Below are positions 34,801-64,000 of a DNA stretch of 64,000 nucleotides, piece by piece. The position numbers were made by a program, and so were the translations under genes. Source of the DNA: Pleurostoma richardsiae. Lineage: Eukaryota > Ascomycota > Sordariomycetes > Calosphaeriales > Pleurostomataceae. The notes under the pieces were generated by a model, which did not search any database, was not told the origin of the DNA, and worked only from the letters and a program-made list of their open reading frames with translations. The stretch spans positions 620,001-684,000 of the forward strand of contig JANBVO010000016.1 in the NCBI GenBank assembly GCA_030052745.1, in the 5' to 3' direction. Position 1 is the first letter of the stretch; each line of letters begins with the position of its first letter.

Positions 34801-36622
34801 ATGATAGCCACAATTGTCGAACACAGTGCTGCGTTCTCTGTTGAGAACGGAAGCTATCTTGCGCTGCAAGATGCGCCGAGCCAGGTAGCCGGCGTCCTTA
34901 CCAGCTGGTTTTCTGGGTGGAGTGCTTCGCAGATCATTGTCACGGTGTTGCTAACCCTCGTTGTGTATGATCAAGGTACGCACTTGAGGCTCTTGAATTT
35001 GGCCTTGATGCTGACTCCCTCGCAGTCATGTATATCAAACGGAAAGGCTCAATCGCTGGACCTCAGCTCAAAATCCCCTTCATGGGACCTTTCATCCAAG
35101 CACTTCACCCAAAATTCGATGCTTATCTCGCCCAATGGGCCAGTGGGCCTCTCAGCTGTGTTTCTGTGTTCCACAAGTACGTGACCTTTCTGACTATCCC
35201 GCGCGCTGTTCTGGAAGGTTGCCAATGCTGACCGGGCGGCATCACAGGTTTGTTGTCCTAGCCTCGGACCGTGACATTGCACACAAAGTCTTCAAGTCAC
35301 CATCGTACGCGAGACCTTGTATAGTTCCCATTGCGGAGGATATCATGCGCCCGACATCGTGGGTCTTCCTCACAGGGAAGGTCCACGCAGAGTTTCGTCG
35401 AGGATTGACCGGCCTCTTCACCAACAAAGCGCTGAGCACATACCTCCCGATTCAGGAGAAGGTCTACGCCGCTTATTTCGCCAAATTCGTCGCGGCTACC
35501 GAAGCCAACGAGGGGAAGCCAATGGAATTCATGGGGCTCTTTAGAGAGATCAACTGCGCGCTCTCATGTCGAACTTTCTTTGGGGATTACATCTCCCAGG
35601 ACGCGGTCAAGAAGATTGCCGACGACTTTTATCTCGTGACCGCGGCTCTCGAGCTTGTCAACATTCCATTCTCCATTCATGTCCCCTTTACTAAGTGCTG
35701 GTGGGGGAAGCGCATCGCAGATGCTGTCCAAGCCGAATTCACAAAGTGTGCTGCCGCGTGCAAGGCCAACATGGCCTCCGGCGCTGAGCCGACATGCATA
35801 GTGGACCAGTGGGTTCTACATATGATGGAGTCCAAGGAATACCACGAAAAGATCGCCGCCGGGGAGGTGGGGGCTGAGAAGCCCACGAATCTCATTCGAG
35901 AGTTCACAGACGAAGAGATTGGACAGACGATGTTCACGTTCCTCTTCGCGTCCCAAGATGCATCGAGCAGTGCCACTACTTGGCTTTTCCAGATCCTCGC
36001 CCAGAGACCGGACGTCCTCGATCGCCTCCGGGAAGAGAACCTCGCCATACGTGGGGGTGACAAAGATCGACCGTTTGATCTGGCGATGTTCGAGTCGCTC
36101 ACTTATACCAACGCCGTGGTGAAAGAGCTACTCCGCTACCGTCCACCGGTCATCTTCGTGCCATATCTTGCCACGCAGGCGTTTCCGGTCACCCCAAGCT
36201 ACACTGTCCCGAAGGGCGCAATGGTTGTCCCGTCCTGCTATCCGGCACTTCATGACCCGGTCGCCTATCCCAATCCGGATGTCTTTGATCCAGACCGCTG
36301 GATCACAGGTGATGCCGAGTCCAAGACCAAGAATTGGCTCGTGTTTGGCGCTGGCGCGCACGACTGTCTTGCACGGAAGTACGTGCCACTTACCATGGCG
36401 GCCATGATCGGCAAAGCCGCACTGGAAGTCGACTGGGTGCACCATGCTACAAGCCGTTCGGAAGAGATCAGGGTGTTTGCTACGCTGTTCCCCATGGTAC
36501 GTCTCTCATTTCCTACATCCTGGTGCCAGGAAGGGTTCACCAATCGCTTCGTATGCTAATCATGTGTTAAGGATGGATGCCAGCTTACTTTCACGAAGAG
36601 GAATGGACCAACTCGACCTTGA
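34801..36622 (+). CDS. CYP61/ERG5-like cytochrome P450 (541 aa)
   Basis: Related to sterol C-22 desaturase, which acts late in ergosterol synthesis in the ER. Exons are 34801-34975, 35026-35176, 35248-36496 and 36572-36622. An N-terminal membrane anchor is at about residues 45-57 (IIVTVLLTLVVY). The I-helix LFASQDASSSATTWLFQ, the ExxR in KELLRYRPP, VPKGAMVVPS, FDPDRW and the terminal RSEEIRVFATLFPM closely follow the CYP61 pattern. The heme loop is FGAGAHDCLARKY with ligand Cys482; the usually invariant Gly two residues later is Ala484. It sits beside accessory metabolic genes, so it is probably a paralogue and not the housekeeping ERG5. Whether it still desaturates sterols is unclear. Confidence 0.85.
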
Positions 36623-36771: not shown

Positions 36772-37524
36772 TTAAACCTTCGCGTTGGCCTGCAGGCATG
36801 AAATAATCAGACCTGTCGACATGACATCTCCAAATATAGAATAAAAGGCAGCGAGAGATGCGTTGTGCTCCTCATCGGTAGATGCGGCATTGCCATCGCT
36901 GACCATGATCGTCTTGTAGTTCAACATCATAGCATCCCGAGCCGTTGACTCGCAGCACACATTGGTGACTGTGCCGGTGATAAGCAGCGTGTCCAACCCA
37001 CGGGCCTTGAGGATATCATGCAGCTCCGACGACCCTTGAATGAAAGCGCTGAAGCGTTGTTTCTCGACTACCAGGTCCTCGGGCTTGACCTCAAGTCCAG
37101 CCCATAGTTCCCATCCTTTGCTACCGCGAGATAGAGCCCCGATACGCTTCGTAGTCCAATGCGGCAGTGACATACTATCTAGGATGGACCATTCAGAGCC
37201 ACCCTCTTCTGTCCATATCGTCTGAATCCAGACCACCTTACCGCCAGTGCGCCGTACGGCAGAAGCTAGGCGGTTGACATTTGGCACGATGTCCTGTGCT
37301 GACTTGACGAACGCGTGCGCTACCCCTTCCATCATGAAGGCATTTTGCATGTCGACCACGATCAGCGCGGTCTTAGATGGCTCGAGGTCGTCAAAGATGT
37401 GTTCCTTGCCGCGGCGTGATACCACGCGGTCAATGGACCCCTGGGGGATCGCGATATTGTGCATGTTGACTAGGATGCCACGAGGTTGCCTGAGAGAGCG
37501 CAAGACTACAGCGGGGAAGTTCAT
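36772..37524 (-). CDS. Isochorismatase-like cysteine hydrolase (250 aa)
   Basis: A single-exon hydrolase of the isochorismatase superfamily, which includes amidases acting on nicotinamide, maleamate, carbamoylsarcosine and ureidoacrylate. The catalytic triad is complete: Asp58 (ALIVVDMQNAF), Lys155 (VVEKQRFSAF) and Cys190 (TGTVTNVCCESTARDA). The TN-V-C and STARDA parts are family signatures. The length is slightly above usual because of about 40 extra N-terminal residues; an internal start at Met21 (MHNIAIPQG) is possible. It is the tail-side neighbour of the FAD monooxygenase on the same strand, and both may belong to an aromatic or heteroaromatic breakdown route (inference). An amide substrate is most likely by family. 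Confidence 0.87.
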   Translation of the reverse strand: MNFPAVVLRSLRQPRGILVNMHNIAIPQGSIDRVVSRRGKEHIFDDLEPSKTALIVVDMQNAFMMEGVAHAFVKSAQDIVPNVNRLASAVRRTGGKVVWIQTIWTEEGGSEWSILDSMSLPHWTTKRIGALSRGSKGWELWAGLEVKPEDLVVEKQRFSAFIQGSSELHDILKARGLDTLLITGTVTNVCCESTARDAMMLNYKTIMVSDGNAASTDEEHNASLAAFYSIFGDVMSTGLIISCLQANAKV

Positions 37525-37892
37525 CGAAGTCTGGTTTATTCCCTATCGCCTCCCAGATGTGGACGGAGATCCGGATTCGGAGGCGTTCGGAAGTTGGCAT
37601 CCGATCGGCGTTCATCGATCGGGCAGGCCCGAAGCACTCCGATGAAGAGGGGCTGGCTGAACATCTTTCGTTATTATAACAACAGCAATACTTTCGTGTC
37701 GTAGCAGAAGATGACCTTGAATTGCCGAGCAGCAATTGCACCTTATATGACCTTTAGCCTTGTATTGTTCAAAAGTTGAAGCTCACTAGCGGAAGAAATC
37801 ATAAAGAGTTCGAAGCAATACCTCTCCTTCCCAAGCAGATCTTCAAGTTGTCTTGCCTTTGGATTCGTCTGCCCGTAGCCGCGACTGCCTCA
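37525..37892. other. Intergenic between isochorismatase-like and FAD monooxygenase genes
   Basis: A 368-bp stretch acting as the promoter of the hydrolase and the 3' flank of the monooxygenase. No exon or notable repeat was seen. Confidence 0.5.
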
Positions 37893-39428
37893 TCACCAAT
37901 AGCCACCTGCTAGTGGAGGCACAGCTACGTCGTCCAGTGAACCAGTGACGCCCTTCCTGATATCTTCCGTCACCTTTGGGAACTGCTCTCGTGCGAAATG
38001 CAGAGGATCCCAAGGCTTCAACTTAGGGAACCGCTTTTTAGCCCAGAGCTCAGGGTCCGCCTCTATGGTGTCCCAGGGGATCTTATAGAAGGCGTCGCGG
38101 TTCACCTGCCCGCTCCTATGCACCGCGTTGGACCGGTGGTAGCGGATTCTCTGCGCTGCCTCCAGAGCCAGCTTGACGTCCCCTCCGGACTGTTCCAGGC
38201 AGTGCGCCACCGTCACCGCGTCCTCGAGAGCCTGAGACGCGCCCTGGCCCGCGGTGGGCAGGTTAGCGTGGGCGGCGTCTCCGATGAGGATCGTTCGGCC
38301 ACCTTCGCTCGTCCACTTGTCTATGGCCGGGCGGTAGACGAGCTTGAAGTCGATGGTGCGCCCGACCGGCGTCACATCGAAGAGGGCGCGGGCGTCCTTG
38401 GCAGTGAAGTAATTGACCCATTTTTCGACATGCTCTCTTTCGGCCACATTGGACCAGGACTCGGTTGACTCCTTATCGTCCTAAGAGGAAGGCAACACTG
38501 ATTAGGATCGAAATTTAACGTCCTGGGCGTGACTGCAGGGCTTACTGGATGGATGAGAACCCAGGCAATGTCTTTGCCTTGGTTCCAGACAAACAACATC
38601 ATGGAAAGATTGTCACACATCCAGAACCTGACAGTGTCTCTGTCTGAGTGGAACAGGTGCTGAAGGTCGGGATGACTTCTAGCCTCCTCGCTAGTCTTGA
38701 AGAAACTGCGAAAGACAGCCCAGCCACTTGAGTTTCCGTTTTTTTCTTCGTCGTTGAGGTGGAGGACCTGCTTCCTCGCAATGGACCGGGGCCCATCCGC
38801 GGCGATGACACAGTCGCCCCAGACAGTCTCTCCATTCGACAGAACCACACCTGCTCGATCCTCCTCTTCTTTGTACTCCACCGCGGCGACCCCGATTCTG
38901 GTGTCTTTCACCAGCGTCTTGGTGTATTCCAGGAAGATGGAGTGGATCTTACCACGGTGACCGGCGTAGGTTATGCTGTGCTCCCGCTCGTCCCGGGCCC
39001 ATGGAACGTTTGTGAGGAACTTGCCATCAAATTTGCATAGTTCCATGGCCCTGATACGACTGCAACCGCTGTCGTGTATCAGTTGGCCCACTTTACCGTC
39101 GTCCCATCTGTTAATGATGCAGCCGGCATTGGCAAAGAAGTCGAGAATGTCTGGACAGGTTAACACATGCATCTGTTAGCTGATAGGTTAATATGGCGTG
39201 CCTTGCCTGTACGCTCTGCACTGGATTGTATGCCGACAGATGAGGAACGATGAATTCCTTCACGATCCAAGGGAAGAAAAGGGTCTGCTTACCTCCTTGG
39301 TTGTTTGAGTCCGGGTACTTCTCAACGATGGTCACATCCATGCCTCGCTGAGCGCATTCAATCGCTGCACCCAGACCGCCGAAGCCAGCCCCGACAATGA
39401 TTACTTTCAGAGGTTTGCCAACTGCCAT
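37893..39428 (-). CDS. FAD-dependent aromatic hydroxylase, salicylate hydroxylase-like (442 aa)
   Basis: A class A flavoprotein monooxygenase, predicted to hydroxylate an aromatic ring using NAD(P)H and O2. Exons are 39428-39293, 39150-38546 and 38480-37893. The dinucleotide motif IIVGAGFGGLGAAIE starts at residue 10. The DG motif is CVIAADGPRSIARKQV, and the GD motif TILIGDAAHANLPTAGQGA is followed by the usual ALEDAVTVAHCL helix. Length and motif order match salicylate or 6-hydroxynicotinate monooxygenases. No membrane segment is seen. The first intron is long for this locus (142 nt). The gene is divergent from the OAH sulfhydrylase-like gene over a promoter with a CGG palindrome. Confidence 0.9.
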
Positions 39429-40139: not shown

Positions 40140-41615
40140 ATGGCCACGCCGGTCATCGTCGTCGACCAACACACCGGGGTAGAGCACGTACCCAGGTTCG
40201 AAACACTCCAGGTTCACGCAGGTCAGAAGCCCGACTCGGCCACGTTGGCTCGAGGCGTCCCTATCTACCAGACGTATGTGTTCAACTTCCACAACTCAGC
40301 CCATGCTGCACGCCTTTTTGCACTGGAGGAGGAGGGCGAGATTGCTACCCGGACAGGAAACCCGACAACGGCCGTGCTAGAGCGTCGCGTCGCGGCTCTC
40401 GAGGGAGGTGTGGCGGCCATCGCGGTTTCGTCGGGCCAAGCGGCTGTGTTCATGACCATGGTGGCCCTAGCGGGCAAGGGTCAGAACATCGTGGCGACCA
40501 AGCACTATTACCACGGCGCCTACAACCAGTTCAACTTTCTGCTGCCGGAGTTTGGCATCGAATGCCGCGTGGTGGAGGAGACGGCCGAGGCGGTGCGCGC
40601 CGCCATCGATGAGCACACCAAGGCCGTCTACATCGAGACGGTCGGCCATCCCAACTTCAACGTTCCCGATATCGAGTCCATAGCCTCAGCTGCCCACACC
40701 GGCGGCGTACCTTTGGTGGTGGAGAACACGGTCGGCTGCGCCTACTTCTGCCAGCCAATAAAGCACGGCGCCGACATTATCGTTTCGAGCCTTAGCAAGT
40801 GGTTTGGCGGGCACGGCAGCTCTACGGGAGGCATAATCGTCGACTCTGGGAACTTCGACTGGGCAAGCTCTTCGCGATTCCCCCAATTCAATAAACCGTG
40901 CCCGGGGTACCACGGGCTGAACTTCTCCGAGACGTTTGGGCGGGCGGCGTTCATCAAGCGCATACATGGCCAGATCCTCCGGGATGTCGGCTCATGCCTC
41001 TCACCTTTCAACGCTCAGCAGTTCATTCTCGGCTTGGAGACGCTCAGCCTCCGGTGCGAGAGGCACGCGCAGAACACCATTGCTCTTGCCAAGTGGCTCG
41101 AAAGCCACGCAAACATAGAGTGGGTGTCATACCCGGGACTCCCAAGCCACCCGCATTACGACCTGTCGCTGAAATACCTCCCTCGAGGCGCCGGGGCGGT
41201 GCTAATGTTCGGCATCAAGGGTGGAGCCGACGCAGGAGAGCAGTTGGTCGACAACTTCAAGATGATATCGAACAACCCTGGGTGAGTAAATGCCAACGCC
41301 TCTTCTATATGAAGACTCCCCAGTTTCGTTCTTCAAAATACTATACCCAGCTGTGTCCAAGACTGCCATCTACATTGACGTGAGCGGGTCATGCTAATGC
41401 TAATAAATACTAGATATGGAGATGCAAAGACGACAGCTATGCACCCATGGTCGACCACACATAAACCTATGCTACCGCAAGAAAAAATAGACCTGGGCGT
41501 TGCTCCCGAGATGATCAGGATCTCGGTGGGCATAGAGCATATAGACGACATCGTATTTGATATCGAGCAAAGCATGCAAGCCAGTCCCGCCGTTCCAAAG
41601 CAAAGCAGTGTATAA
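40140..41615 (+). CDS. O-acetylhomoserine sulfhydrylase-like PLP enzyme (447 aa)
   Basis: A Cys/Met-metabolism PLP enzyme, closest to O-acetylhomoserine (thiol)-lyase, which makes homocysteine from O-acetylhomoserine and sulfide. Exons are 40140-41281 and 41414-41615. The N-terminus [13 protein letters not shown], the [12 protein letters not shown] motif, the phosphate-binding SSGQAA, the Schiff-base Lys220 in [13 protein letters not shown], and the last exon's [15 protein letters not shown] all fit. The pyridine-nitrogen partner in VVDNT, normally Asp, is Glu195 here (VVENT), and the region after it (GCAYFCQP) is diverged. It may therefore be a paralogue with another nucleophile or leaving group. 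It is divergent from the FAD hydroxylase. Confidence 0.88.
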
Positions 41616-48989: not shown

Positions 48990-51876
48990 ATGGAATCGCA
49001 GGATTGCCCTCAGTCTCGCGCCCCTGGAGAAAAGGCAGCGGATTCCATAACATCGTCCTGGAACCGCGAACCGCTGCTGGTCGGTGCGGATGCTCAGCAG
49101 CAACGGCCAGCTCCTCGCCGAGTCTGTGCCGCTTGTCGCCGACGCAAGGTGGGATGCGATAAGAAGCAGCCCTGCCAGAACTGCAAAAAGTCAAACAGCG
49201 AGTGCGTCTATCCCCCCGATGGCAAGTCGGCCGCACAGCAGGTGGACCCCGAGCTGTGGGAGCATCTACGGCGGCTGGAGCCCATGTTCAAGTCTCTTGT
49301 CGACCGCATCGACCAGCATGGCTCCCTCTTCAACCCTCCCTCGCCATCCGTAACCTCTTCCACTGCGTCGGCTGCCCCACAAGCCCGGCGGCCCCCGCCC
49401 GTCTCCTCGCAGGAGGGACGCGGGCGTCCACCCCCAGCCCCTGTACCCCCGACTCCTCCGCATTCTGTTGACTCGTCGTCGACTATTCCCCATGGAGGTG
49501 GCCTTCAAGCTCCAGTTGCGGAAGCACATACCGATCACGACACGGACATCGCGCTCCCCGTTGGTGACTCATCTGTTGCCCGAGCGCCTTCGAGGGCGCA
49601 ATTGCAACAGCGATCACCTCGCCGTGGCGGTGCGGCCCCTGCCCCGGCCCCTGCAGCTTCGCCGCCGGTACTCCTAAAGGCATCCGCGGCGACTCCGCCG
49701 GCATGGTCGCCGTATGGCGCCACCGCCGGGAAGTTGGTGAGGGACAATGGCCGGCGGAGATACGTCAACGGCATGTTCTGGGAAACATTGCACTCTGAGG
49801 TACACTTATATCACCTATGCTCACACTTTACGTTTTGAACATTACTGCACTGGAATAGGTGTCGCTTACATATCATTGGATAGAACAACGACTCCGATTC
49901 GGGCGAAGGAGTCGACACAGATGATGACGACCTGGAGGATCACGACGCTCAGCCATGCTCTTCACGGCCAGTCCAGTCTTCGTTTCTCTATTCGCTCCTT
50001 TTCGAGGCCTGCGCCGTCCGAAGGGGCGGTGACTTGGCAGCATTCCACCCCCCGCCGCATCACCGCTTCCGGGCGTGGCAGCTGTTCAAAGAAAACGTCC
50101 ACCCCGTTGTTACTGTGCTCCATGTCCCTTCCGTCGAGCCGGTACTGATGGAGTACATGGGCAGGGAGGACGTGTCGTCCAATAGCATCCCCGCGCCCCT
50201 CGAAGCTCTCATGTTCGTCGTCTACTTCGGCGCTGCCATCAGTCTCACCCAGGACGACTGCGAGAGTCAGTTCGGCTGCCCGCAATCCGAGCTGCTAGCC
50301 CGCCTTCGGGCTGGGATAGACGAGGCCCTGGCCGCGGCCGGGCTCATGGACACGGACGACATGCTGACGCTGCAGACCTTTGTCATTTACCTAGCGTTGC
50401 TGCGCTCGCACGATCCCACATCTTCTTGGAACCTGACCGGTTTGGCAGCAAGGCTCGCCCAATCCCTGGGGATGCACCGGGACGGAAGCAACTTCGCACT
50501 GCCACCGTTTGACGCAGAACTGAGGCGGCGGCTATGGTGGACGATCTGCATCCTAGATGCGCCCGCGTCCGAGGACTATTCCTGCTCTCCAAGTCTGTAA
50601 GTCCAAATCGTGACGACGTGATCCACCCAATCGTCGATCCGTTTTCTGTCCAAACAACTCCTAGTCATCTCTAACATTGCATTAGCCTGGAGCTGAGCAG
50701 CTTTGACGCAAGACTCCCGCTGAACATCAACGATGCGGACTTGCATCCAAATCTGACTGAATATCCGCCGGAGCGTAGAGGCCTGACGGACATGTCTTTC
50801 ACTGTTGCTCGGTGCTGGGTCTCGGATCTGTGGCGGACGATGATCGACACTCGCAGAACTGACCCGACTACGGGCAAGAGTTTCAGGTCCATGACGGTTG
50901 CCGAGAAAGAGCGCTGGGTCGACACGCAAAGAGATAGAATCAGGGAGAAGGTGTCTGGTGGAAATCAAGCGTCCGGAGAGCCGCTTCAGTGTGTAAGTCA
51001 AACCCCCCTTAACAACCCTTCTGAAGCCACGCCCCCGAGCTTCTCAGCTAATGTCGATAGCTGATCGACGCCTTCATCGGAACCATCTTCTGCAACCTCC
51101 AGCTCTTCATCCACAACCCCCTTGCCCAGCAGGGAACGGCCCCGTCAAGCGAGGAGCAGAGGAGACGCGTCTTCCGCGAGGCCATCGACTGCATGGTGCA
51201 CTCGTACCGGCTGCGGACCGACCCCCGGGCCGCGAGGTGGTCGTGGCTGACGCGGTGCTACAACGAGTGGCACGCCCTGGCCGTCGTGCTCGCGGAGCTG
51301 TGCGACCGGCCGCTGGCGAAGGATGCCGACCGCGCGTGGCGCGTGGTCGAGCAGAACGCCGTGCTCCGCTGGGAGTCGGCCGTCAGCCACCGCCGGCTGC
51401 ACCAGTGGCGGTCTGTCATGAGGACGATCGAGAGGGCGCGCAGGAGGAGGAGGAAGGAGCTCGGCCGCCGGCATGCGCAGTTGTCTGCGCCTGGTGGTAT
51501 AGCTCGTCCAGCTTTATTATCGTCCAGGTCTGGCTCTGGCCGGAGCCCGCCCTTGTTTCGAGAGCAACCCGCCCACCGAGACCAAGAACATAGTCGCGGC
51601 GGCGGCAAAAGCCGTGCACAAAGCGTCTCGGTTCATAATATTACCACTAACATGGTTAGCAGAGACAACGGAAGCGGCGAAGGAGCTGGCATGGGTCAAC
51701 CACAAGGCGACCATTATCAGGACGCCGGCACCGCTAGTAGTTGGGATCATGATGCGTTCAGCTTTGGCAATTTCGTGGACTCGGAGATGCTTGTTGATCC
51801 GCAGATGTTCAGTCCAACCCATATGGAAGCACTGCTTAGCATGCAGAGAGAAGAGCCGGCAAATGCACATGGTTGA
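48990..51876 (+). CDS. Zn2Cys6 transcription factor, paralogue 2 of a pair (881 aa)
   Basis: A large fungal-specific regulator. Exons are 48990-49799, 49884-50596, 50686-50992 and 51061-51876. The zinc cluster is RRVCAACRRRKVGCDKK, then PCQNCKKSNSEC, at about residues 44-72. A long Pro/Ala/Ser-rich linker follows, then YVNGMFWETLHSE, an acidic block (DTDDDDLEDHD), VVYFGAAISLTQDDCE, SSWNLTGLAARLAQSLGMH, RRRLWWTICILDAPASEDYS and EYPPERRGLTDMSFTVARC. It is a clear paralogue of the gene at 42206-44945, in opposite orientation. The first two introns are at the same positions and phases; a third intron (50993-51060) is absent from the other copy. Targets may include the catabolic genes to its right. 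Confidence 0.87.
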
Positions 51877-52139: not shown

Positions 52140-54056
52140 TCAGCTCCGAGGCTTGCCTACTAACCGGCTTTCGTCGATGCGAAACATGGCAACGAGCGCC
52201 TCCCTCGCCTTCTCCATGTTCAGCCCCTGCTGTCTCTGCTGGATAGCGCGCTGGCTCTCCAGCAGCTTATCCCCGACTGCCGACCAGTCAAGCTCCCCGC
52301 CGCCCGCCTCGCCGTCCACGGCCACCGGGCAGAGCCTACCGCCCTTCTTGCGCCAGACGCCGTCGACCATGACGGCCTCGACATCGCGCACGTCGCTGTG
52401 GCGCACCACGGCCGTCAGCGGGTCCGACTCGGCGACGCAGCTCATCCCGGGGCTGGCCGCAGCGTCGAAGACGACCAGGTCCGCCAGCTTGCCCTCCTTG
52501 ATCGACCCGATGCTGTCACCCAGCAGCACCGCCCGCGCCCCGCCGATGGTGGCCGCGTTGAACGCCTCCCGCGTGCCGCCCCTGAGCTCGCGGTGTATCC
52601 GCCGCGGGGCACCGGCGCCGCTGCCGTTGTCTGTCTCGGCAACGGCCACGCGCAGGCGGGCCAGCTGCACTGCGGAGCGCACCTGCGACAGGATAGAAGA
52701 CGTGTTGTTCGTGTGACAGTCAACACCGAGGGTAGTGATAATGCCTGGTGTGAAGGCCAGCGGCCAGGAGAAGCCCATCTGCGCCTCCGTGTCAGGGGTG
52801 CTAGAGACAGGGACCTGCGTCTCGGCGAGCTTGGCCACCTCGCTGGCATCTAGGCCAGTGGCGTGGGAGACGAGTATGTCACTAGGGGAGCGGATGAGGC
52901 CGTAGGCGGCAAGCGTGTGGATGAGCGGGTTTGCGCCTGCACGAAGGACACGCCGTGTCAGCTTGGATAGCCACGTTTACCAGCACCGCCGTTTCCCTGG
53001 AGCGCGAGGTCGGGCTTACCTAGCGTCGGGTTCTTTGCGTAGTGGCTCGTGAAGAGCTTGACGCCGGCTTCCCGCAGCGCCGTGAAGACGCCCACGACGG
53101 CCTCCTTGGGCAGGAACCAGTAGTCGAAGCCGAATCCGATGTGGACCCTGCCATTTCCATACGGCTGCCCTCCGGCCAGTTTGAATAGATGGGCCATGCT
53201 TGACTGCGGCATTATGTCATGCGATAGCTCGCAAGTTTTCGAGTCCCACCTGTCGAAGTAGGGAGCGTGGGAGTAGGCGAAGATTGAGCGGATGCCCGAC
53301 GCGACGGTTGCTGCAAGGGCACGATCGGCTGCGGACCCTGAATGTCAGCAGGAGGGAAATCAACATTCCTCTGCCTATCGGCTTTTCGGTACAATCATGA
53401 ATCGGGGTTTTAAGGTGAGGTAGATGAAATGACGGGGTGAGAAGGCGGTACCTACCGTGATCATCAGACTGGTTCCCATGAGCATGGTCGAGGACGAAGG
53501 TAGTACCGGCGTCGATTGCCTCCAAGGCTCCGCCTAATTGACCCCAGTACATGTCTTCGGGGGTATAAACATGGCTCTGCCAGAAGCCTAGGGGTAGTCA
53601 GTACGAGCACCCAAGAAATTGCCGTTTGGGGAGCCATTCTGGGCAAACTCGGCAGGTGTTGTCCGCGTCAGTGTGAATAAGATGACGAAAACACCGCTAG
53701 ACTATACGCGACGGAGGGGGTTACTAGAGGGGTAAAGGCAAAGACGTACCAGTCGGGATGTAATCGAAGATGGATTGGTCCGCATGGCGACCCTTGAGCT
53801 GTGTCTGCCATAGGTGGTGATGGGTATCGACGAATCCCGGGCTGATAATCTTGCCGGCACAGTCGACCAACTCGGCCCCGTGTGGAGCGACAATACCTTT
53901 GCCCACCTTGGCTATGCGGTTGGCCTGGACAAGAATGTCGGTGTTCCTCAGGGTCTGGACACGGTCTTTGTCATCGTGGACGAGCAGTGTGCCGCCCTTG
54001 AGGAGGATGGCACGAGCTGCAGTAGCTGCCGCTGCCGCTGCCGCTGCTGTTGACAT
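52140..54056 (-). CDS. Amidohydrolase, TRZ/ATZ-like metal-dependent hydrolase (514 aa)
   Basis: Member of the amidohydrolase superfamily branch that includes guanine deaminase, S-adenosylhomocysteine deaminase and s-triazine chlorohydrolases. These hydrolyse C-N or C-Cl bonds on heteroaromatic rings with one bound metal. Exons are 54056-53750, 53587-53456, 53328-53020 and 52936-52140. The metal motif HxH is His79/His81 in GFVDTHHHLW. Further probable ligands lie in LFTSHYAKN, ILVSHATGL and TLGVDCHTNN. The C-terminal composite domain has GSIKEGKLADLVVFD. The N-terminus starts with a run of Ala, probably of no importance. It lies next to the FAH-family gene on the same strand, 408 bp apart, and may deaminate or dechlorinate an upstream intermediate. 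Confidence 0.87.
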
Positions 54057-54464
54057 GATGGTGGGCAGAGAATCGAGAACTCCCTACTGTGTCTGACTAG
54101 GCGACTGAGTAGCTCTGTTCCTAAGCTGCAGCGTCTCCAGTAGCGCTGTGCTGGTGAAGCTGATAAACGATACAAAGACAGCATAGAGAACCGTGGACAA
54201 TCCCCTTGAGGGAGCTCGGGCGAATACGCGGGGACTGGACGGCCGCTTGTGACGGCCCCCCTGCCCGCGAGTGCGGAGATTGACGGCCGAGACCCCGAAG
54301 CCTCGGCAACTTGGCATCGGCCACACCGGCCGAGCATCCGCCTACACCTGGCCCTTGGTTCCATCTAATCCGCATCTCACTACCAACGAAGTTTTGCACG
54401 ACACGTTTCATTGCATTGTTCTACTGTGGGCCCCACAGCCCTCCAAAGGGGGTTTGCGTAGCTT
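54057..54464. promoter_or_regulatory. Intergenic, amidohydrolase promoter
   Basis: A 408-bp stretch between the amidohydrolase start and the FAH-family stop. It holds the presumed promoter of the former. No distinct repeat or exon was seen. Confidence 0.45.
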
Positions 54465-55473
54465 CTAGTTATCCTTGCTGAAGACCATACGGTTCTTGAT
54501 GCTACCGAAACCCCGGATCGTTACTTCGACAACATCCCCGTCCTTCAAGCAGCCACCTGAGTGCCAGCCCACACCCTCCGGCGTCCCCGTCATTATCAGC
54601 GTCCCGCGCCGGAGGGTGCGGCCGCGCGAGGCAAATGCGATAAGCTGTCTGCAAGACCAGATCATCTGGTAGGTGTTGGAACTCTGCCGCAGTTCTCCGT
54701 TCACCCTGGTCGTCAAATCCAGGATCTGCGGATCTGGCACCAGCCTGGGTGACACTAGATACGGACCCGTCGGTCCAAAGTGGTCAAAGGACTTTGCGTA
54801 GCCCATCTGATAGCCCGACATGTCGACGGCGTGCAAATTCCGCGCCGACACGTCGTTGCTGATGGTGTAGCCCAGCACATAGTCCAGCGCATCCTCCTCG
54901 CTAATATCATAGCCGTCCTTCCCTATGACAATGCCCAGTTCACCTTCGTAATCCAGAAGCTCCTGTGCGTCCGGGTGTATCTTTATGTCGTCCAGTGGCC
55001 CCGTCAGCCGATCAGGTGGCGTCGCAAAGAGGACTGGTTTCTTCGGGGGGCTAAACTATTGGCGGTCACAAGGGACAAGTCAGTCCGTAGAAGACGACGC
55101 GTAGAAGTCTCCCCTATAGAATGCACTGGGCTCACCTTCGTCTCGTTGGCATGCGACTTGTAATTCACCCCCGCACAGAGAATTATCGGTGTGCTCGGCA
55201 ATGGACATATGATCTAGCAACGGCATGTCCTTCAGTTTCAATGTGTCCATTCTCCCCTGGGCCTACACATGTTTGAATTGACACGGTGGGAGGGTTGCAT
55301 ACCTTAGCTACTTGAGCTGTTTCAGGTAATGTATGGAGGGCACTGCTCAGGAGTCCAGCGACGACATGTACTGTCTTGCCGACCAAATCGTCAACCGGGA
55401 CGTCGTCTTCCACATTGCCATACCGCTCCACTCCATTCACGTCAATAAACCTTATGAGCCTATCAAATGACAT
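54465..55473 (-). CDS. Fumarylacetoacetate hydrolase-family protein (279 aa)
   Basis: An FAH-superfamily enzyme. Relatives cleave C-C bonds, decarboxylate or hydrate 2-oxo acids made by aromatic ring cleavage. Exons are 55473-55303, 55213-55136 and 55055-54465. The N-terminal part (RLIRFIDVNGVERYG) leads to the core LPSTPIILCAGVNYKSHANE. The metal-binding region is LLDYEGELGIVIGK and the rest has LGYTISNDVSARN, FDHFGPTGPYLV, and the terminal TGTPEGVGWHSGGCLKDGD. The length matches 2-hydroxyhepta-2,4-diene-1,7-dioate isomerase or acylpyruvase types. It is divergent from the extradiol dioxygenase, the classic pairing of ring cleavage and its follow-up step in bacterial meta pathways. Confidence 0.9.
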
Positions 55474-55977
55474 GTTGCTTCTAAAAGACCCCAAGTGCGA
55501 TGAAGATAAATGAGAACAGACTGGAAGATTACCAAAAGGAGTATTACCTCGTTCGTGGACAACACACATATATCGGATCGACAACGGCGCTTTGCGTTGA
55601 TTTCCTTCGAGCATGATCCTCTGGTAACCTCGGATTTCTTCTCCGTGTACATCGTAGCACGCGAGCCTGCACGTATGACAGAGGTCTCGGCTCCGGATTC
55701 CGCACCCTACCATCCGGTGCTGAGGGATTACCCCCGTAACGGAGGCGACCTCTAGCCGGGAACATCACCGTAGTGTTGCTCAACTGCCGAGGAGCCTGCT
55801 TGCACTACTATTGCGTTCCATTATGGCCCCTCACGGCTCCAGCCGATCACATAGACGAGTAAATAAGACGGAGGCGGTCAAGTGTCTCCAGAACCAACTC
55901 ATCCCACGGCATTTCTGCGATAGAAACAATATCGTGTTCCTGCTCGAGAATCTTCAGAGCCATCGCTAGCTGGAGGT
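55474..55977. promoter_or_regulatory. Divergent promoter, FAH hydrolase / extradiol dioxygenase
   Basis: A 504-bp bidirectional promoter shared by the two ring-cleavage genes. It contains several CGG triplets and a short CCGT-A-ACGG inverted repeat at 55734-55742. Confidence 0.5.
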
Positions 55978-57174
55978 ATGTCGTCTTCCTTGACAGAGGA
56001 CAGTCGCATCTTACTTGACCGGCTCTCTCATTGCCGGTACGGCCACCCTGATCTCGCAAGCGTGAAGAAGTTCTACGTCGATTTTGGCCTAGTGCCAGTG
56101 CTCGAAAAAGAAGACAAGATATACTTTCGCGGATTCGGGGAGGATCAGTTCTGCTACGTGGCCGAGAAGACCTATGATGGCAAGCGAAAATTCAAGGGCG
56201 GCGCATGGATCGTGCAGTCCATGGCCGAGCTGGAAAAGGCGGCCAAGCTGCCAGGCTCTACACCGATCCACGATCACGACGGCCCCGGGGGTGGGAAGGT
56301 TGTCATTATGAAGGATTGTCTGGGCGAGGAAATCACTCTCATCTACGGCCAGCAAGACCGCGTGCCTGACGCCAGGGAGGTGCCCAAGCCCGTCCAGTGG
56401 AACACATGGGACGACAAGAGGCGTCTCGGAGAGTTCCAGCGGCCCGATAAGGATGTTCCATCCAAAGTTCACAAACTAGGACACTACGGATTTGAGGTGA
56501 ACGTCAACCAGCTCCCTCTGGTCTACGACTGGTACGCCGAGACATTCAATATGAAGAAGACAGATTGCCTCTACCATACCGCCAGTGGTAAAACGGTGAT
56601 GATATTCATCCATCTCGACAAAGGCAAAGATTTTGTGGACCATCACGTTAGTGAATGCCTCGTGGATATAAGCACGTCCGATGGATGAGCTGACAAGCCG
56701 CCAGAACATCTTCATCGCTGGAGGTCCTGAAGTCGAAGAAGGTGCCATCAAGGCTCACCATAGCAGCTTCGAGGTGGACGACATTGACAGCCAGCTCGTC
56801 GGACACCACTACATGATTCGCCAACGCCATGTCAATGTCTTCGGAGTCGGGCGACATGTGCTCGGGAGCCAAATCTTTGATTATTGGTAAGTACCGGCGG
56901 AAATCCGTCGGTCAACCAGCATCGCCAACAGACATAGATGGATTGAAACTGACAAGCCGTGCCCTTAATCTCCAGGTTCGACCCGTCAGGGTTTGTAGTG
57001 GAGCACTATGTCGACGGGGACCTGGTGAATGAGGATTCTCCTAGCGGCAACGAGCCAGCCGTTGCTGCGACGGTCTCGAGCTGGGGTCCTGAGATCCCGA
57101 GGGCGTTCTTCACCAAGAGACCCGAGGATCTGCCCGGTCTCAAGGAGGTCCCGAGTATTCCCTTAGAAGTCTGA
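55978..57174 (+). CDS. VOC-family extradiol-type dioxygenase (349 aa)
   Basis: A two-domain vicinal-oxygen-chelate protein resembling catechol 2,3-dioxygenase, which opens catechols next to the hydroxyls. Exons are 55978-56646, 56705-56886 and 56976-57174. The first VOC half covers residues about 15-130; the second, about 163-300, is the catalytic one. It has a likely Fe(II) triad: His169 (KLGHYGFEV), His241 or His242 (KAHHSSFEVDDID) and Glu293 (FVVEHYVDG). GxDPSG-like FDPSGFVVEHY also fits. The last 45 residues form a family-typical tail (SWGPEIPRAFF). It is divergent from the FAH-family gene and followed by an SDR. Metal, substrate and cleavage mode cannot be read from sequence. Confidence 0.87.
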
Positions 57175-57713
57175 GCTCTACTTGTCCGGCGACAATAATG
57201 TCCTTTCGCGTGGATTACGGTCGCTACTTGGTGCAGTGTAACGTGCATATGATCCTCGAGCTTCTATCCCTTAGCCTATATGCGGAACTCATTATACAAG
57301 AAAGTGGAATGAGATCTTCCCACTGAATTATTGAAACTGAGAACCCTCGTCTGTGCAACTTTTCCGGAATAGTTCCTACAGAATAAAATCAAGTAAAGAT
57401 AGTGTACGGTCAACGAGGCCGTATCTCGGGCACTAGGCCGAGTATCTTTGTCCACGTTGAGAGCGCCTCGGCACTTCGGAGGAAACGCTGTGGAGAGCTT
57501 TCCGGAGTTGACCGCGCCGGCTTCAGCATCTTACACTTCAAAGACAACGTCTCTCGATTCCTGTTATAACCGTTCCGATCTCCTGTTTTAGTGGCATCAT
57601 CCTGCAAGCAACAAAAGAATAGAAAGTGACTAAAGGCTTCAACTCAGGTATCCAAGTACCGTCGTAGCCCTCGAGAACGCTGCTTCACACAGGGTTTCTC
57701 AACACATTACGCC
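57175..57713. other. Intergenic, SDR promoter
   Basis: A 539-bp stretch between the tandem dioxygenase and SDR genes. It holds the 3' flank of the former and the promoter of the latter. No exon or notable repeat was seen. Confidence 0.5.
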
Positions 57714-58562
57714 ATGCCCAATCTAGTGGAATCCCAGGCTCTGCAACGACCATCCCACGCTACATCTACAATGGCTGGCCGGACGGCCGTCATCTCAGGC
57801 TCATCCAAAGGTATCGGAGCAGGCATCGCCCTCGAGCTCTCCAACCGCGGTGCCAACATCGTGCTGAACTACCCCAATCCGTCCACGGAAGCTGAGTGCC
57901 ATGCCGTCGGCTGCCAACTGGTAACCCCATGGATCGCCGTGTGCGCCGACCTCACCAGCGACGACGGACCGGCCGAGCTGATCCGCCGCGCCGTAGAGCG
58001 CTTCGGACACATCGACATCCTCGTCAGCAACGCTGGCTACGTGCCCATCGCACCGACGTGGGACTCTACCTTTCTAGCCGATTTCGAAGCCGCCGCGCGG
58101 CTCAACGTGCGGGGCTGCCTCGCGCTGGTGCAGGCTGCGCTGCCGCACCTGACGCCGTACACACCGGGATCGGAGCCATCGGGCGCGGTGGGTGGATCTC
58201 GGATCGTGCTGGTCGGGTCGGCGGCGTCGCGGAACCCGAAGGCTAACCAGGGCGCCTATGCGGCCACCAAAGGGGCACTGGACGCGATCCTGCGCGTCTG
58301 GGCCCTCGAACTGCCTCCACGGTACGGATGTACCGTCAACCTAGTGGCCCCAGGGCCAGTGCGGACAGACACGTTTCTGGACCGGTTCAACGATGAGCAG
58401 TGGGAGCATGTGAGCGGCCTGCTGAGCCAGGAGACGCCGGTGGAGGGGTATGCAGCGGCAGTGGAGGACGTGGCATGGGCGGTGGCGTTCCTTGCGGAGG
58501 AGAGGTCACGCTTCATTAACGGGTTGTATATGGTTGTGTCAGGCGGGTCGACGATGACCTAG
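57714..58562 (+). CDS. Short-chain dehydrogenase/reductase, intronless (282 aa)
   Basis: A classical SDR. The cofactor motif SGSSKGIGAGI starts at residue 28, NAG is at 106-108 (LVSNAGYVP), and catalytic Ser169, Tyr182 and Lys186 lie in VGSAAS and AYAATKGAL. The substrate-side motif NLVAPGPVRTDTF and the terminal INGLYMVVSGG are standard. An alternative start at Met20 (MAGRTAVISGS) would remove a 19-residue leader. It is single-exon and GC-rich. By position it may oxidise or reduce an alcohol or dihydrodiol in the same route as the adjacent dioxygenase; a dihydrodiol dehydrogenase role is only speculation. Confidence 0.9.
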   Translation: MPNLVESQALQRPSHATSTMAGRTAVISGSSKGIGAGIALELSNRGANIVLNYPNPSTEAECHAVGCQLVTPWIAVCADLTSDDGPAELIRRAVERFGHIDILVSNAGYVPIAPTWDSTFLADFEAAARLNVRGCLALVQAALPHLTPYTPGSEPSGAVGGSRIVLVGSAASRNPKANQGAYAATKGALDAILRVWALELPPRYGCTVNLVAPGPVRTDTFLDRFNDEQWEHVSGLLSQETPVEGYAAAVEDVAWAVAFLAEERSRFINGLYMVVSGGSTMT

Positions 58563-58840
58563 GAGCGCTCTCTATCATTGCTATAGGACCCCGACGTTTT
58601 CACTCATCAGTACTACTCCAGACATCTAACATATACTGCGAATATATCAGACGTTATATTGACGAGCAGTGTAGTAATGCCACAATGCGTCTATATGCTT
58701 CTCTATAGAGAACTGGATGGGAACGACCAGAGATTCCAGGCAGAGTTGACCGGGCAGTTTCCAGCAATTGCCAGGGCAGTGGGAAGCATCTATGTTTACT
58801 GCCATGCACAAGAGACTGCGTAGCAAGGTGTAGGCGTGCA

Positions 58841-60983
58841 TCAATTGGACATAGCAAGAGGTGCTCCCCTGCTGCAAAACATGATTTCCCACTCGGGATC
58901 AGGAATGACCTGCTTCAAATTAGCCTACACAATGTCCTCTGAGATATGGAAACAGGATGGGATTAGACCGATAGCAGGGAACCGGGCGCGCCTCCACTTA
59001 CCAGTCCTTCGAATTCAATATTCTTGGGTCTTCCACCTCCGATGATAGGAAGTCGGACATCGTACCGCGTGATGAATTCGATGAGCAGCAACTTCAGTGC
59101 CACTTCAGCAATGTAGCGCCCCGGGCACGCGTGCCTGCCGTAGCCCCAGGTCAAGTCCTTCTTGCCAACAGTAACCATCTGATAACTGTTCCTCATACCC
59201 TCGCGCTCGGTCCGCAGCCGGTGATAGCGGAAGCCGTCAAAGGTCTGGGGATTCTCGAAAAGTCCCTCGTCCATGTTGATGGCGCCCGTCGGGAGGACGA
59301 TGCGTGCACCTTTGGGAACGCGCATCCCGTTGGACAGGGTGAGTTCCGACACTGCCTTACGCTGGAAGCTGGCTATTTCTCCGAATTAGACTCAGCAAAT
59401 AAGAAAGGCATTGCGGGTATGAAAGTGGAATGTTCGCCCTTACTCAGATCCGGTGGGTTTAGCCGCTGCGTCTCCTTGATAAAGCTGTCCAGCTTGAGCA
59501 TCTCTGAGAGCGCTTGTCGGCTGATGTGTCCATTTCCCTTTGCGAGTTTCTCTTCTATTTCTTGTCGTAGCTCTGAGATGTATTCGGGATAAGTTGCCAT
59601 GTCCATGAGGCACTGCGTCACAGTGGCGGCCATGGATTGGATAGCGGCAACGATGAGATTGATCTGTGTGATTGTGTGTGCCTCGGCATCCTCGGCGCCC
59701 ATATCGCTCTCGGCGAGCCAGTCCAGAAGCGACGGCGGATTGTCGAGGTGCTTGTCTCCATTTGTCCTTCTCTTTCTCAGCGTTTCGGCCACCATGGACT
59801 TGGCCTCGTCGAAGTGCCGGAGCATCGTTTGCCGCCCGTTGCGATTGACAAAGGGATAAACGACTGGGCGGAGTACATGAGGCCACTTCTTCAACGTCTC
59901 GGTCCACAGAACGGCTGAATTCACATGCTGCGTTGAGATGTCCAGCCAGTGATCGTTTTCTGCCGCTTCAGCACTGTGGAAGATCCTTGCCGAGACGCGT
60001 GACACCAGACGCATTATATGAGGATAGGGCTTGATGGCGGTGAAATCTGTTGTTCAGGTGACCATTCAGTACGATCAACTCCTTTCTTAAAATCGATGAA
60101 CTCCTAGGATTTGAATATCTAATGATGCGGATAGTTGCTAACTCACCTTGATAATCATCGAGCGGCCAGTGGTCGCGAGCCACCTGTTGGATGACCGGGA
60201 CATACTGCGCTATCATATCAAGTTAGCAACTTGTTGAACGAAAAAGGCTGCAGGCTTTTCGCTTTATGTGCGTATACTCACGGAGGCTCGGGTTAAGCTT
60301 CTTGTTGACAATGTTAATTTCAATCTCCTTAAGGTTCCCAACTTTGGTGTATTTCTTGAAACTAAACTGCGTCGTAGGAAACCACAGTTAGGCGGCTAGT
60401 CACTCTAGGCCATGATACGATAGCACATTACCTCCTCTTCAAGAAAGGCACTGAAGCTCAAGCTTTTCTGTCCTCCAAGACCATCTAGGAGGCCTAGCGG
60501 GATTACAATGTTGGTTCCTAAATCCAAGTCAGCTCAACCTCCTTGCCAAAGGTGAACTATACATTCGGGTGATAAATGCAAAGACATTCAACAGGAGATT
60601 GCTCGGGACTCACCTTCCGTTGTTGTAAGACCAAACACTTGGCTCCCGAACTGGCCAATTTGCACATAATCAGTACCGCTGCTAATGATGCAGGTGATCG
60701 GAGAAAAGGGAGGTGTCAGGCTCAACTGCACCTTCTTGTAACCATTCATGAGCAGTTCCCGAGTGTTCCTCATGTAGATATCCTGTCTTTTCTTCTTATT
60801 TGGGATTTCTTCCTCCATCGCGATCGGCATTTTAGGCATCGAGTCCGGAAACAAAAAAGGCCAAGCAAGCAGCAACGCCAAACCAAGGGCCCCAAGACCG
60901 GCCCAGCCTGTCACGGTAACTGCATTCTGCTGAAATTTGGCCCTGAGAAGCGGGTAGTAGACATCGAACTGCGAAGCCGACAT
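58841..60983 (-). CDS. Cytochrome P450, ent-kaurene oxidase-like type (553 aa)
   Basis: An ER-bound monooxygenase of the fungal class with a GYGRHACPGRYIAEVALK heme loop, as in ent-kaurene oxidase and indole-diterpene P450s. Exons are 60983-60614, 60517-60432, 60366-60282, 60209-60147, 60046-59444, 59372-59002 and 58924-58841. The membrane anchor is at about residues 25-47 (GWAGLGALGLALLLAWPF). The ExxR is in FIKETQRLNPP. Spliced exons give LTSFQRKAVSELTLSNGMRVPKG in two parts. The I-helix reads LIVAAIQSMAATVTQ, lacking the usual acid-Thr oxygen-activating pair. The region around residues 70-105 fits the family less well, and a further intron there is possible. It is divergent from the next P450. 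Confidence 0.82.
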
Positions 60984-61659
60984 GACTATCACATACGGAC
61001 TTGAGGTGCGTCGGCAGTGGTGTAATTGCTTGGTCCTGAACTACGGATGCCTCGATTTAAACTAAGGAACGAGAGTCTCCGCAGTGTCCAGCTCGCACCA
61101 CGTCTACGAATCTAGGAGCTTACTACGCCATACAAAAAGCTAATACGATACTATGGAGGACTTGGTTCTCTCGGTCGCACATGGTATCCTGTAGCCTGAA
61201 GCTGCCGGCGCTGGCGCCGTGCACGAACTCCGGGATCACGGGAATTTCGGCCGAGCATCAAGCCAAGGCCAATAACCTCACCGTCAGTGGCGTTGGTAGA
61301 TCCGGTGTATCTTGACTGCATGCCCGAAAAGGGATCTTCCGATCAACCTTCACCGATAAGCCTTGTATCTTTTATCAAAACGGGAATAGAGGCGACCAAT
61401 CCGGCTTTGGTAGGACATGGAATCGCTCCCTAGGTTGAACAGACATCATCAGTAACTCCAGCCCCGTAGCAACCGAATACTCGAGCGGTCCTCTCCCCCA
61501 CTCCCGAAGAGGCCTGTTAATCCAGGATTCAAGCCGAGTCGTAACAAACAGTGATACTACTTGATATCTGCCTGCACTCTTGCAAAGTTTTCCGGCATCG
61601 AAACGGTGTCGATCTCGTCACAATCACGACCATCGCCAGACACCAATTGTCAGGACACA
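60984..61659. promoter_or_regulatory. Divergent promoter between two P450 genes
   Basis: A 676-bp bidirectional promoter with a perfect inverted repeat CGGCGC-TG-GCGCCG at 61206-61219. No exon is supported; in-frame non-ATG codons continue upstream of 61660. Confidence 0.55.
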
Positions 61660-63475
61660 ATGATCTCCTTCTGGCTACCCATCATTGGGGCAGCGGCTCT
61701 TATCATTTTTGGCATCGGTTGGATTTTGGTAGACTATGCCCGAGTGCTTCGCCTCCGGAATCGTATGCCTCCTGGGCCATTTCCACTGCCCCTGTTTGGC
61801 AACATCTTCCAGATTCCCCCGGTCAGGCAGTGGGAGAAGTTTGAGGAATGGTCATTAGAATACGCCGATCCGGTGATTACGATATGGGACGGACATACTC
61901 CCGTCATCATCTGCAATGACGCCTGGTCCATGTCTGAGCTTTGCGACAAGCGAGCCAACATCTACTCGTCCAGGGCCGTCAAAACCCTGACCGGCAAGGT
62001 CTTCGGCCTCAACAAGTTCAACCAGGCGGGACTTGCATATGGAGAACAATGGCGTCTGCACCGCCGGTTAACTGTAAGCCGTCACGTCGGCGACCCTTGC
62101 TTTCATTCTGGCTTGGTTTGCTAACATTATTCCGTGTTGACTGCAGCACTCTGCCGCCAACGCTCAGGTCGTCCAAACGTATCGCTCGTTTCAAGCAAAC
62201 GAGGCAAAGCTTCTGATTGCCAGCTGCCTCGACGAGCCGGACAGGTTCGTCGACAATGCCTTGCGCTTCACCGTCTCCATCGTATCAGTCATTGCCTGGG
62301 GCCGACGCATCGACGGGGATAACGACAACGTGCTCAAAGTTGCCCAAGCCTTCGTCGGCAGCGCAAACCTTGGTTTCCCGGGCAAGACGTACACTGAAGC
62401 CATTCCCATCCTTGCCGATATGCCCAGTTGGCTCAACCCGCTGCCGCAGCAGCTGAGGCAGCTAGCCACTACATCTAACAAATACTTCTATGCTCTGTCC
62501 CTCGAGGGAGCAGGCGGGACGCAAGACAATTTTGCCAAGCGCCTGCTGCGTGAGAAAGACGAACATGGCCTCTCCAAGGTTGAGATAGCCAACTTGACCG
62601 GTAATTTCATTGGTGCTGGAGTCGACACCACAACCAGCACAGTTCTTAGCTTCATCCTAGCCATGTGCCTCAACCAGGACGTCCAGACTAAGGCCCATGA
62701 GGAGATTGATCGCGTTGTCGGCCAGGCCCGCTATCCGGACTGGTCCGACGAGGAGAAACTGCCATACGTCGGTGCCATCGTCAACGAGACGCTTCGCTGG
62801 CGGCCGGCTTTTTGCCTTGGTGGCCCGCCGCACGCTCCCACTGAGGACGACGTCTACCGTGGGCGCCTCATCCCCAAGGGTACCGCAGTTATCGGCAATC
62901 TGTACTCTATTTCCCGGAACCCACGCGAGTACCCGGAGCCTCAACGGTTCATGCCGGAGCGCTTCCTTGATGAGTTCCCGCGCCCAGCGTATCCGAACAA
63001 GAGGGGCCACAACACGTTCGGGTGGGGCCGGCGCGTGTGCAGTGGTGAGGCTCTGGCGCAGCAGAGCCTGTACTTCACTATCGCATCGCTTCTTTGGGCA
63101 TTCCATATCCGCCCGGGTCTTGATGAACAGGTAAGCCATGAGTGTCTCCCGCCGAACTTCATTTACCATGACGAACACTCGAGGCTGAAAGCCCCGACAA
63201 TTTCCGGATCAGAAACTGACGAGTTGATTAAACTGATACAGGGACGAGAAGTCCATCTCGATGCAAACGCCTACACTACCACCCAAGTGAGCAGGCCAAA
63301 ACCCTTCAAGGTGCGGTTTCTGCCCAGGAGTGAAGGTATCACGAATCTGCTGCGAGAGGCTGCTCGGCACGCCCGCGAGGATTTGCGCGTCTATGATTCA
63401 GAGACCAATGTCACCTACGAGAGTGCCCAGTCCGTGTCGTTGGACATGCCAACTGCCACAGTTGAGAAGCACTAA
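61660..63475 (+). CDS. Cytochrome P450, group I class E (543 aa)
   Basis: An ER-anchored P450 of the CYP2-like fungal group that includes O-methylsterigmatocystin oxidoreductase. Exons are 61660-62073, 62147-63130 and 63242-63475. The anchor is at residues about 2-24 (WLPIIGAAALIIFGIGWIL), followed by the Pro-rich hinge RMPPGPFPLPLFGN. I-helix GAGVDTTTST, ExxR in NETLRWRP, PERF and heme loop FGWGRRVCSGEALAQQ are all intact. The intron at 63131-63241 (111 nt) has no stop and keeps frame. I infer it because its removal joins LDEQ to GREVHLDANAY as in homologues and it has GTAAGC and ACAG ends. The tail after residue 500 is longer than usual. Confidence 0.88.
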
Positions 63476-64000
63476 AAGGCCTTCTCTCTAGCGAGGATAT
63501 GATATTGAATGAGTCATAGAGACGAACGGTGTGCGAGCAGATTCCTATTCAGATCGCATAGGCGCGGGTGGAAGGAAAATAGATCGTCAACATAACCTGT
63601 CAGTCTGTGTCTAATCATGCATCCCTGAGTAGAATGCCCTCCCAGCCCCTGGGGCTTTCCTGGCATGTAGATAGGTGTCCCGAAATTACTGATACAAGCA
63701 ATGAGCTCTCTCTTTCCTGAGAAGTCACAAGGCCAATAAATTATCTGCTTTCTTTATCTGAACTTCAAGTGACTTCCTTAGTTCATTCTATTTCAGCAGG
63801 TCTAAAAACTTTATCACCTATCACAGTAGATGAACGTGCATAACTTGCGACCGCTCATCAAGAATCAGTGTCTCTTTGTCGTTTTATGTTATATACGAGA
63901 ACCTAATCCAAATGAGATGTATTCTCGGGGGAATAAGTACACTAGGGTCTAACTCTCATCCGGATGGTTACCAAGCAAGACCCTCAATACCGCCATTTGA
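63476..64000. other. 3' flank of the last P450, to window end
   Basis: AT-richer, non-coding sequence. No exon, repeat or RNA was recognised. It presumably holds the P450's terminator. Confidence 0.5.

Follow-up and report, generated by a model that had tools for sequence, protein, structure and literature searches.

We report that a 64,000-nucleotide stretch of the Pleurostoma richardsiae genome (positions 620001-684000 of contig C45; hereafter the window) carries a divergent gene pair, encoding a vicinal oxygen chelate (VOC) protein and a hydrolase of the fumarylacetoacetate hydrolase (FAH) superfamily, that is predicted to form a meta-cleavage module. The prediction is strongly supported by 1) the protein families, 2) the catalytic residues and 3) the recurrent linkage of the two genes. 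We consider probable a scheme in which oxygenases and a short-chain dehydrogenase (SDR) acting upstream would supply this core with a diol and a Zn2Cys6-type transcription factor would serve as the switch. A degradation route that has yet to be worked out in fungi could be put to the test at this locus: given the two enzymes, their paralogs elsewhere in the genome and bacterial counterparts, the meta-cleavage question becomes testable with two purified proteins.

The genome assembly comprises 39.4 Mb in 136 contigs, and C45 ends ~29 kb past the window; positions beyond 64000 are given in window-extended coordinates. Gene models come from a purpose-built gene finder followed by hand correction at splice sites, and all exon boundaries are predicted. 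The core of the cluster consists of the following features:

54465-55473, minus strand: FAH-superfamily hydrolase, 279 amino acids (aa), exons 54465-55055, 55136-55213 and 55303-55473; PF01557 FAA_hydrolase, 221 bits
55474-55977, no strand: FAH/VOC divergent intergenic region, 504 bp between the start codons
55978-57174, plus strand: predicted VOC-fold type I extradiol dioxygenase, 349 aa, exons 55978-56646, 56705-56886 and 56976-57174; PF00903

An earlier note on this DNA described the FAH and dioxygenase genes as sharing one promoter, which agrees with the one intergenic region common to both.

The VOC protein

The VOC protein matches Pfam family PF00903 (Glyoxalase/dioxygenase) with 24.4 bits at a cut-off of 20.6, and among the NCBIfam models it reaches 39.4 bits for HpaD (cut-off 321) and 32 bits for catechol_2_3, both far under the cut-off. 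Its metal triad, H169, H242 and E293 (2-His-1-Glu, in the C-terminal VOC domain), aligns with that of homoprotocatechuate 2,3-dioxygenase (HPCD) and is invariant in all 30 alignment rows. The same invariance holds for three second-sphere residues, H223, H274 and Y283, aligned with HPCD His200, His248 and Tyr257 (numbers 200 and 257 are given in PDB titles). A two-domain VOC fold was read from the predicted structure of a bacterial relative of the fungal protein, and extradiol enzymes make up the majority of the top structural matches of that model, over nearly the full length. The closest solved structure by both sequence and fold is 3b59, a VOC protein of Novosphingobium aromaticivorans that was deposited as a glyoxalase and has 21-22% identity to the modelled bacterial relative. 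Active-site residues and the fold of the relative thus support a predicted activity of the extradiol type.

One column sets the window protein apart from HPCD. HPCD R243, the Arg that binds the substrate carboxylate, is replaced by F269 in the window protein and by Trp in 3b59 (the alignments for this comparison are minus five of the 27 bacterial VOC rows, namely both of L020 and those of L035, L036 and L042).

The FAH partner

By sequence, the closest PDB entry to the FAH protein is HpcE (1gtt, E 3e-52). Its FAA_hydrolase domain contains an E-x-E metal site (E120, E122) as well as K171, all invariant in 6 of 6 aligned rows. The protein scores 155 bits against the HpaG C-terminal model, whose cut-off is 276, and its family scores single out no one reaction.

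Recurrent linkage of VOC and FAH genes

A genome-wide search found three VOC genes in P. richardsiae, on C45, C24 and C104, and 25 FAH matches that merge into 15 gene places (a lower bound) in the 39.4 Mb; the probability that chance alone places at least two of these VOC genes no more than 6.5 kb from an FAH gene is ~7e-5. At the second VOC/FAH locus (C24:652178-660739) the VOC gene (657517-658568) lies ~4.3 kb from the FAH gene (652178-653254), whose product has 35-42% identity to the window FAH over two aligned parts. A transcription-factor-like gene (by eye) and an SDR gene lie between the two, and an FAD_binding_3 monooxygenase gene lies beyond the VOC gene. What this locus has in common with the window cluster is only VOC, FAH, an SDR and a transcription-factor-like gene. 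As for synteny beyond this genome, the Eurotiomycetes named in the earlier note may be the wrong class to look in: the best score of a Tps1 fragment from this genome is with 6jbi, a Magnaporthe protein (459 bits, with 422 for the runner-up).

Among bacteria, 11 of 23 VOC loci contain an FAH gene, always on the VOC strand, and in five of them (L020, L022, L027, L037 and L040) it lies at most 150 bp from the VOC gene. On the basis of seven genomes with 92 FAH matches in 38.2 Mb, the number of FAH genes expected by chance in the 300 kb examined is 0.7, and this expectation is biased upward in that these are the genomes of 7 of the 23 loci, picked for a nearby FAH gene. Genes for AMP-ligase, FMO-type monooxygenase, hydrolase or ABC-transporter-like proteins (the transporter by eye) are found near the bacterial pairs. 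The recurrent linkage supports the pairing of an extradiol dioxygenase with an FAH enzyme, as the earlier note had proposed, in agreement with the active-site residues and the fold of the relative.

In a 29-row tree, from which the partial L042 was excluded, the three fungal VOC proteins cluster together (100/99). All fungal rows come from this one genome, so that bacterial descent of the fungal VOC genes is only a reading. Intradiol genes (PF00775) are also present in the genome, with 10 matches merged to 7 places, the sole one on C45 lying ~486 kb off.

Two side observations concern the bacterial loci. At 7959-12877 of L020 (Paraburkholderia), the genes that come after a VOC gene, on its strand, encode a large molybdopterin oxidoreductase and an iron-sulfur subunit; the oxidoreductase begins with a domain that matches PF21423, a pyrogallol hydroxytransferase-like model. 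The hint at a trihydroxybenzene that this molybdenum enzyme might give was accorded little weight, because NCBIfam places the protein nearest to S/N-oxide reductases. A window FMO-type protein (21118-23197), encoded ~33 kb away from the window VOC gene, has 33% identity to the FMO that directly follows the FAH-VOC pair in a Caulobacterales contig (L022, 9138-10937).

Genes around the core

Six genes occupy 52140-63475, from left to right amidohydrolase (minus strand), FAH (minus), VOC (plus), SDR (plus), P450A (minus) and P450B (plus). All six spliced models are intact, with GT-AG introns and no internal stops, and all exceed their Pfam family cut-offs, the VOC protein by a small margin; intron-rich spliced genes of fungal type occur across the window. 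These are the genes that the earlier note had listed, and they are real, but its list stops short at the right edge, where a Rieske oxygenase and an MFS-like transporter follow. The features flanking the core are:

48990-51876, plus strand: Zn2Cys6-type transcription factor, candidate cluster regulator, 860 aa; family assigned by eye from the Cys6 motif, without a family search
52140-54056, minus strand: amidohydrolase-superfamily protein, 4 exons, 517 aa; PF01979 Amidohydro_1, 77 bits; pathway membership uncertain
57714-58562, plus strand: SDR, 1 exon, 282 aa; adh_short_C2, 139 bits; GSSKGIG and YAATK motifs
58841-60983, minus strand: cytochrome P450 (P450A), 7 exons, 548 aa; Pfam p450, 137 bits; heme motif WGYGRHACPG
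61660-63475, plus strand: cytochrome P450 (P450B), 3 exons, 543 aa; Pfam p450, 233 bits; heme motif FGWGRRVCSG
63968-65365, minus strand (3' end 63968-64000 inside the window): Rieske oxygenase, possible cluster member, 397 aa; PF00355 and PF00848
65987-68548, past the right edge: MFS-like transporter, named by eye

With 245 bits at a cut-off of 391, the amidohydrolase falls in a PRK08204-like group; it has the metal ligands HxH, two more His and an Asp. Deaminases of this superfamily require the Glu of an H-x-x-E motif. On strand 5, where deaminases of the 8-oxoguanine, S-adenosylhomocysteine (SAH) or AtzB type have this motif, the window protein has H-Y-A-K; at the same position five bacterial relatives have HQGG, a paralog in the same genome (L049) has HAVG and a distant homologue in the same genome (L053) has HCAE. 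Because of this replacement the hint at an amine is weak: we rejected the amidohydrolase as a sign of an aromatic amine, and the route for a heteroaromatic or aromatic amine suggested in the earlier note loses its basis in this gene. The bacterial relatives are matches in 5 of 398 genomes of the phylum of L020 at E 1e-40, with 31-33% identity, and are represented by ~4.3 kb of DNA each, which is too short to reveal a pathway.

The nearest PDB entry to the Rieske protein is carnitine monooxygenase 6y8j and its nearest family is GbcA. Both are quaternary amine enzymes, so a ring-hydroxylating role is not implied.

Two palindromic dyads recur in the intergenic regions of the cluster, and in the FAH/VOC region they are located as follows:

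55757-55770: CGG-N8-CCG
55631-55645 and 55688-55702: CGG-N9-CCG

Each dyad is present in 5 of 6 chosen cluster intergenic regions, compared with 0.87 (N8) and 0.84 (N9) expected. Of 4000 shuffles, none gave 5 of 6 for N8 and one did for N9; when any of 44 palindromic dyads was allowed to count, 1% of shuffles did so. In 92 kb in total there are 54 occurrences of N8 and 46 of N9, from which ~2.0 and 1.7 would be expected in the 3.35 kb of the six regions, where 6 and 7 are observed. These dyads hint at co-regulation of the cluster genes; the evidence is a hint because the motif was picked post hoc, after inspection, and the null is simple, and the six regions were chosen by hand.

Proposed pathway and alternatives

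The enzyme activities, the substrate, the role of the FAH protein, co-regulation and the membership of the other genes are what we infer in the following scheme. The VOC enzyme would bind a divalent metal via H169, H242 and E293 and open a ring of the catechol or trihydroxybenzene type next to its hydroxyl groups rather than between them; H223, H274 and Y283 would take the acid-base roles described for HPCD. The FAH enzyme would process the oxo-hydroxy-dienoate by C-C hydrolysis or by isomerisation/decarboxylation, like HpcE or DntG. The P450s and the SDR, perhaps with the Rieske enzyme, may cut a larger aromatic compound down to the diol that is then cleaved, and the Zn2Cys6 factor adjoining the cluster may switch the genes on.

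Several observations weigh against this scheme. The C24 locus has no match to the amidohydrolase, the P450s or the Rieske protein at E 1e-4, and no FAH match lies on C104, the contig of the third fungal VOC gene. Twelve of the 23 bacterial loci show no FAH gene, with 10 of these 12 covering <16.5 kb and some possibly cut off. The FAH-adjacent VOC gene in L020 and L027 is a second copy, which falls in a different branch of the tree from the one by which the locus was found, and the join of L022 and L037 to the fungal group is weak (87/77), with a warning of long branches there from the tree tool. The VOC scores against named extradiol families are so far under cut-off that they single out no substrate. 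It is possible, with somewhat less than an even chance, that only FAH and VOC (with the transcription factor) form a unit and that the amidohydrolase, SDR, P450s and Rieske protein are unrelated neighbours in a catabolic-rich region. The C24 pair indeed has other partners, and oxidoreductases and transporters abound in the wider window as well (by eye), but the presence of each dyad in 5 of 6 cluster intergenic regions, in the post hoc test described above, favors the larger unit.

The broad assignment to PF00903, just above cut-off, and the deposition of 3b59 as a glyoxalase would be compatible with a different type of VOC protein, be it a glyoxalase, an isomerase or a metal-dependent thiol transferase, misread as a dioxygenase, which we consider very improbable because the two-domain architecture, the three metal ligands and the three second-sphere residues are all present and most top structural matches, at near full length, are extradiol enzymes. 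If the protein is a dioxygenase, the pair could still serve a secondary-metabolite or detoxification cluster, where the dioxygenase would cleave a ring in a plant toxin or specialised product, the P450s and SDR would modify the compound, and growth would not draw on its carbon. The presence of two P450s together with an SDR and a Zn2Cys6-type factor would suit such a cluster, and an excerpt of PMC8896014 names, as one of two scenarios for extradiol enzymes of fungi, detoxification that stops short of full metabolism; we nevertheless find it unlikely, as the gene models of the window and the next 28 kb (read by eye, without a dedicated search) showed no polyketide synthase, nonribosomal peptide synthetase or terpene synthase and the neighbours of the bacterial pairs are of the AMP-ligase, FMO, hydrolase or ABC-transporter type.

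Comparison with known systems

The bacterial pair HpaD/HPCD and HpcE/HpaG resembles the window pair in combining a two-domain VOC extradiol dioxygenase with an FAH enzyme and in having the same six active-site residues, and differs in that the window proteins score below the equivalog cut-offs of HpaD and of the HpaG C-terminal model. Homoprotocatechuate as the default substrate was rejected because of these low family scores and the missing Arg. In the degradation of 2,4-dinitrotoluene, DntD (trihydroxytoluene oxygenase) is a VOC protein and DntG an FAH protein; this extradiol/FAH pair, likened here by description only, acts on a trihydroxylated ring, whereas the window pair has a fungal host, introns and other neighbours.

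Gentisate dioxygenases are cupins, unlike the VOC-fold (PF00903) enzyme of the window, and a Pfam scan of 10 cluster-region proteins (the MFS transporter and the transcription factor lying outside the scan) found no cupin. In other respects the nearest fungal layout that we found is the gentisate cluster of Scedosporium, which according to excerpts of PMC8283699 comprises an MFS transporter, a P450, a dioxygenase, a monooxygenase, an FAH protein and a Zn2Cys6 factor; shared with the window are transporter, P450, ring-cleaving dioxygenase, FAH and Zn2Cys6 factor (MFS and factor by eye here). The cluster is thus bacterial-type chemistry in a fungal layout resembling the gentisate one. The same excerpts term gentisate cleavage extradiol, and the earlier note's statement that fungi open rings by ortho cleavage is too strong if taken as the only way.

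Searches among open-licence papers brought up none that we recognised as describing a fungal VOC-type extradiol enzyme. The CDO3-type fungal enzyme in excerpts of PMC8896014 is LigB-like (IPR004183), in contrast to the VOC enzyme of the window, and there one LigB-like extradiol gene and a putative aldehyde dehydrogenase were found and the rest of the meta-cleavage pathway was not. A 2025 review (PMC12388069, excerpts) calls extradiol enzymes "less common in fungi". Such a gene has been annotated before, as a "trihydroxytoluene oxygenase" listed for Scedosporium in a part of PMC5716253. The Fusarium clusters induced by benzoxazolinone include FAH or amidohydrolase genes (PMC10512309); the word glyoxalase is absent from that text, and the sole "aromatic ring-opening dioxygenase" is listed outside those clusters.

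Excerpts of PMC10512348 state that only intradiol cleavage is described in fungi and report that A. niger with 17 ring-cleavage genes deleted, identified by PF00775, PF02900 and/or PF04444, grew unimpaired on gallic acid. VOC-fold enzymes fall outside this choice of genes. We entertain a wider idea, tentatively and as one that could more easily prove wrong than right: fungi may have their own VOC extradiol clade, of bacterial descent and duplicated, that runs complete meta-cleavage of di- or trihydroxybenzenes with a linked FAH enzyme. If so, a survey limited to PF00775, PF04444 and PF02900 would miss VOC enzymes, and a VOC/FAH pathway could account for some of the ring opening left unexplained in strains lacking ring-cleavage genes. 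Gallate as a VOC substrate that solves the A. niger puzzle is kept only within this idea, and it may well not be a substrate, since the passages of PMC12388069 on A. nidulans give a different gallate route, with PhyA and, as the putative dioxygenase, a DUF3500 protein.

Other genes of the window and its surroundings

An isochorismatase-family hydrolase gene of the window adjoins an FAD_binding_3 monooxygenase gene on one strand (36772-39428), a layout known from pyridine/nicotinate-type catabolism. The P450 at 34801-36559 (Pfam p450) resembles the sterol C-22 desaturase ERG5/CYP61 and is possibly an extra copy outside sterol synthesis. A pyridoxal phosphate (PLP)-dependent Cys/Met-metabolism-like enzyme (by eye) is encoded amid catabolic genes at 40140-41615. 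Past the window, at C45:703589-704958 (window-extended 83589-84958), lies a phosphonoacetate hydrolase (PhnA) gene (TIGR02335, 512 bits, cut-off 408), for which the longer model of the gene finder is a run-on; an ornithine-cyclodeaminase-like gene and a transporter-like gene (the transporter by eye) lie close to it, in a possible phosphonate-use cluster.

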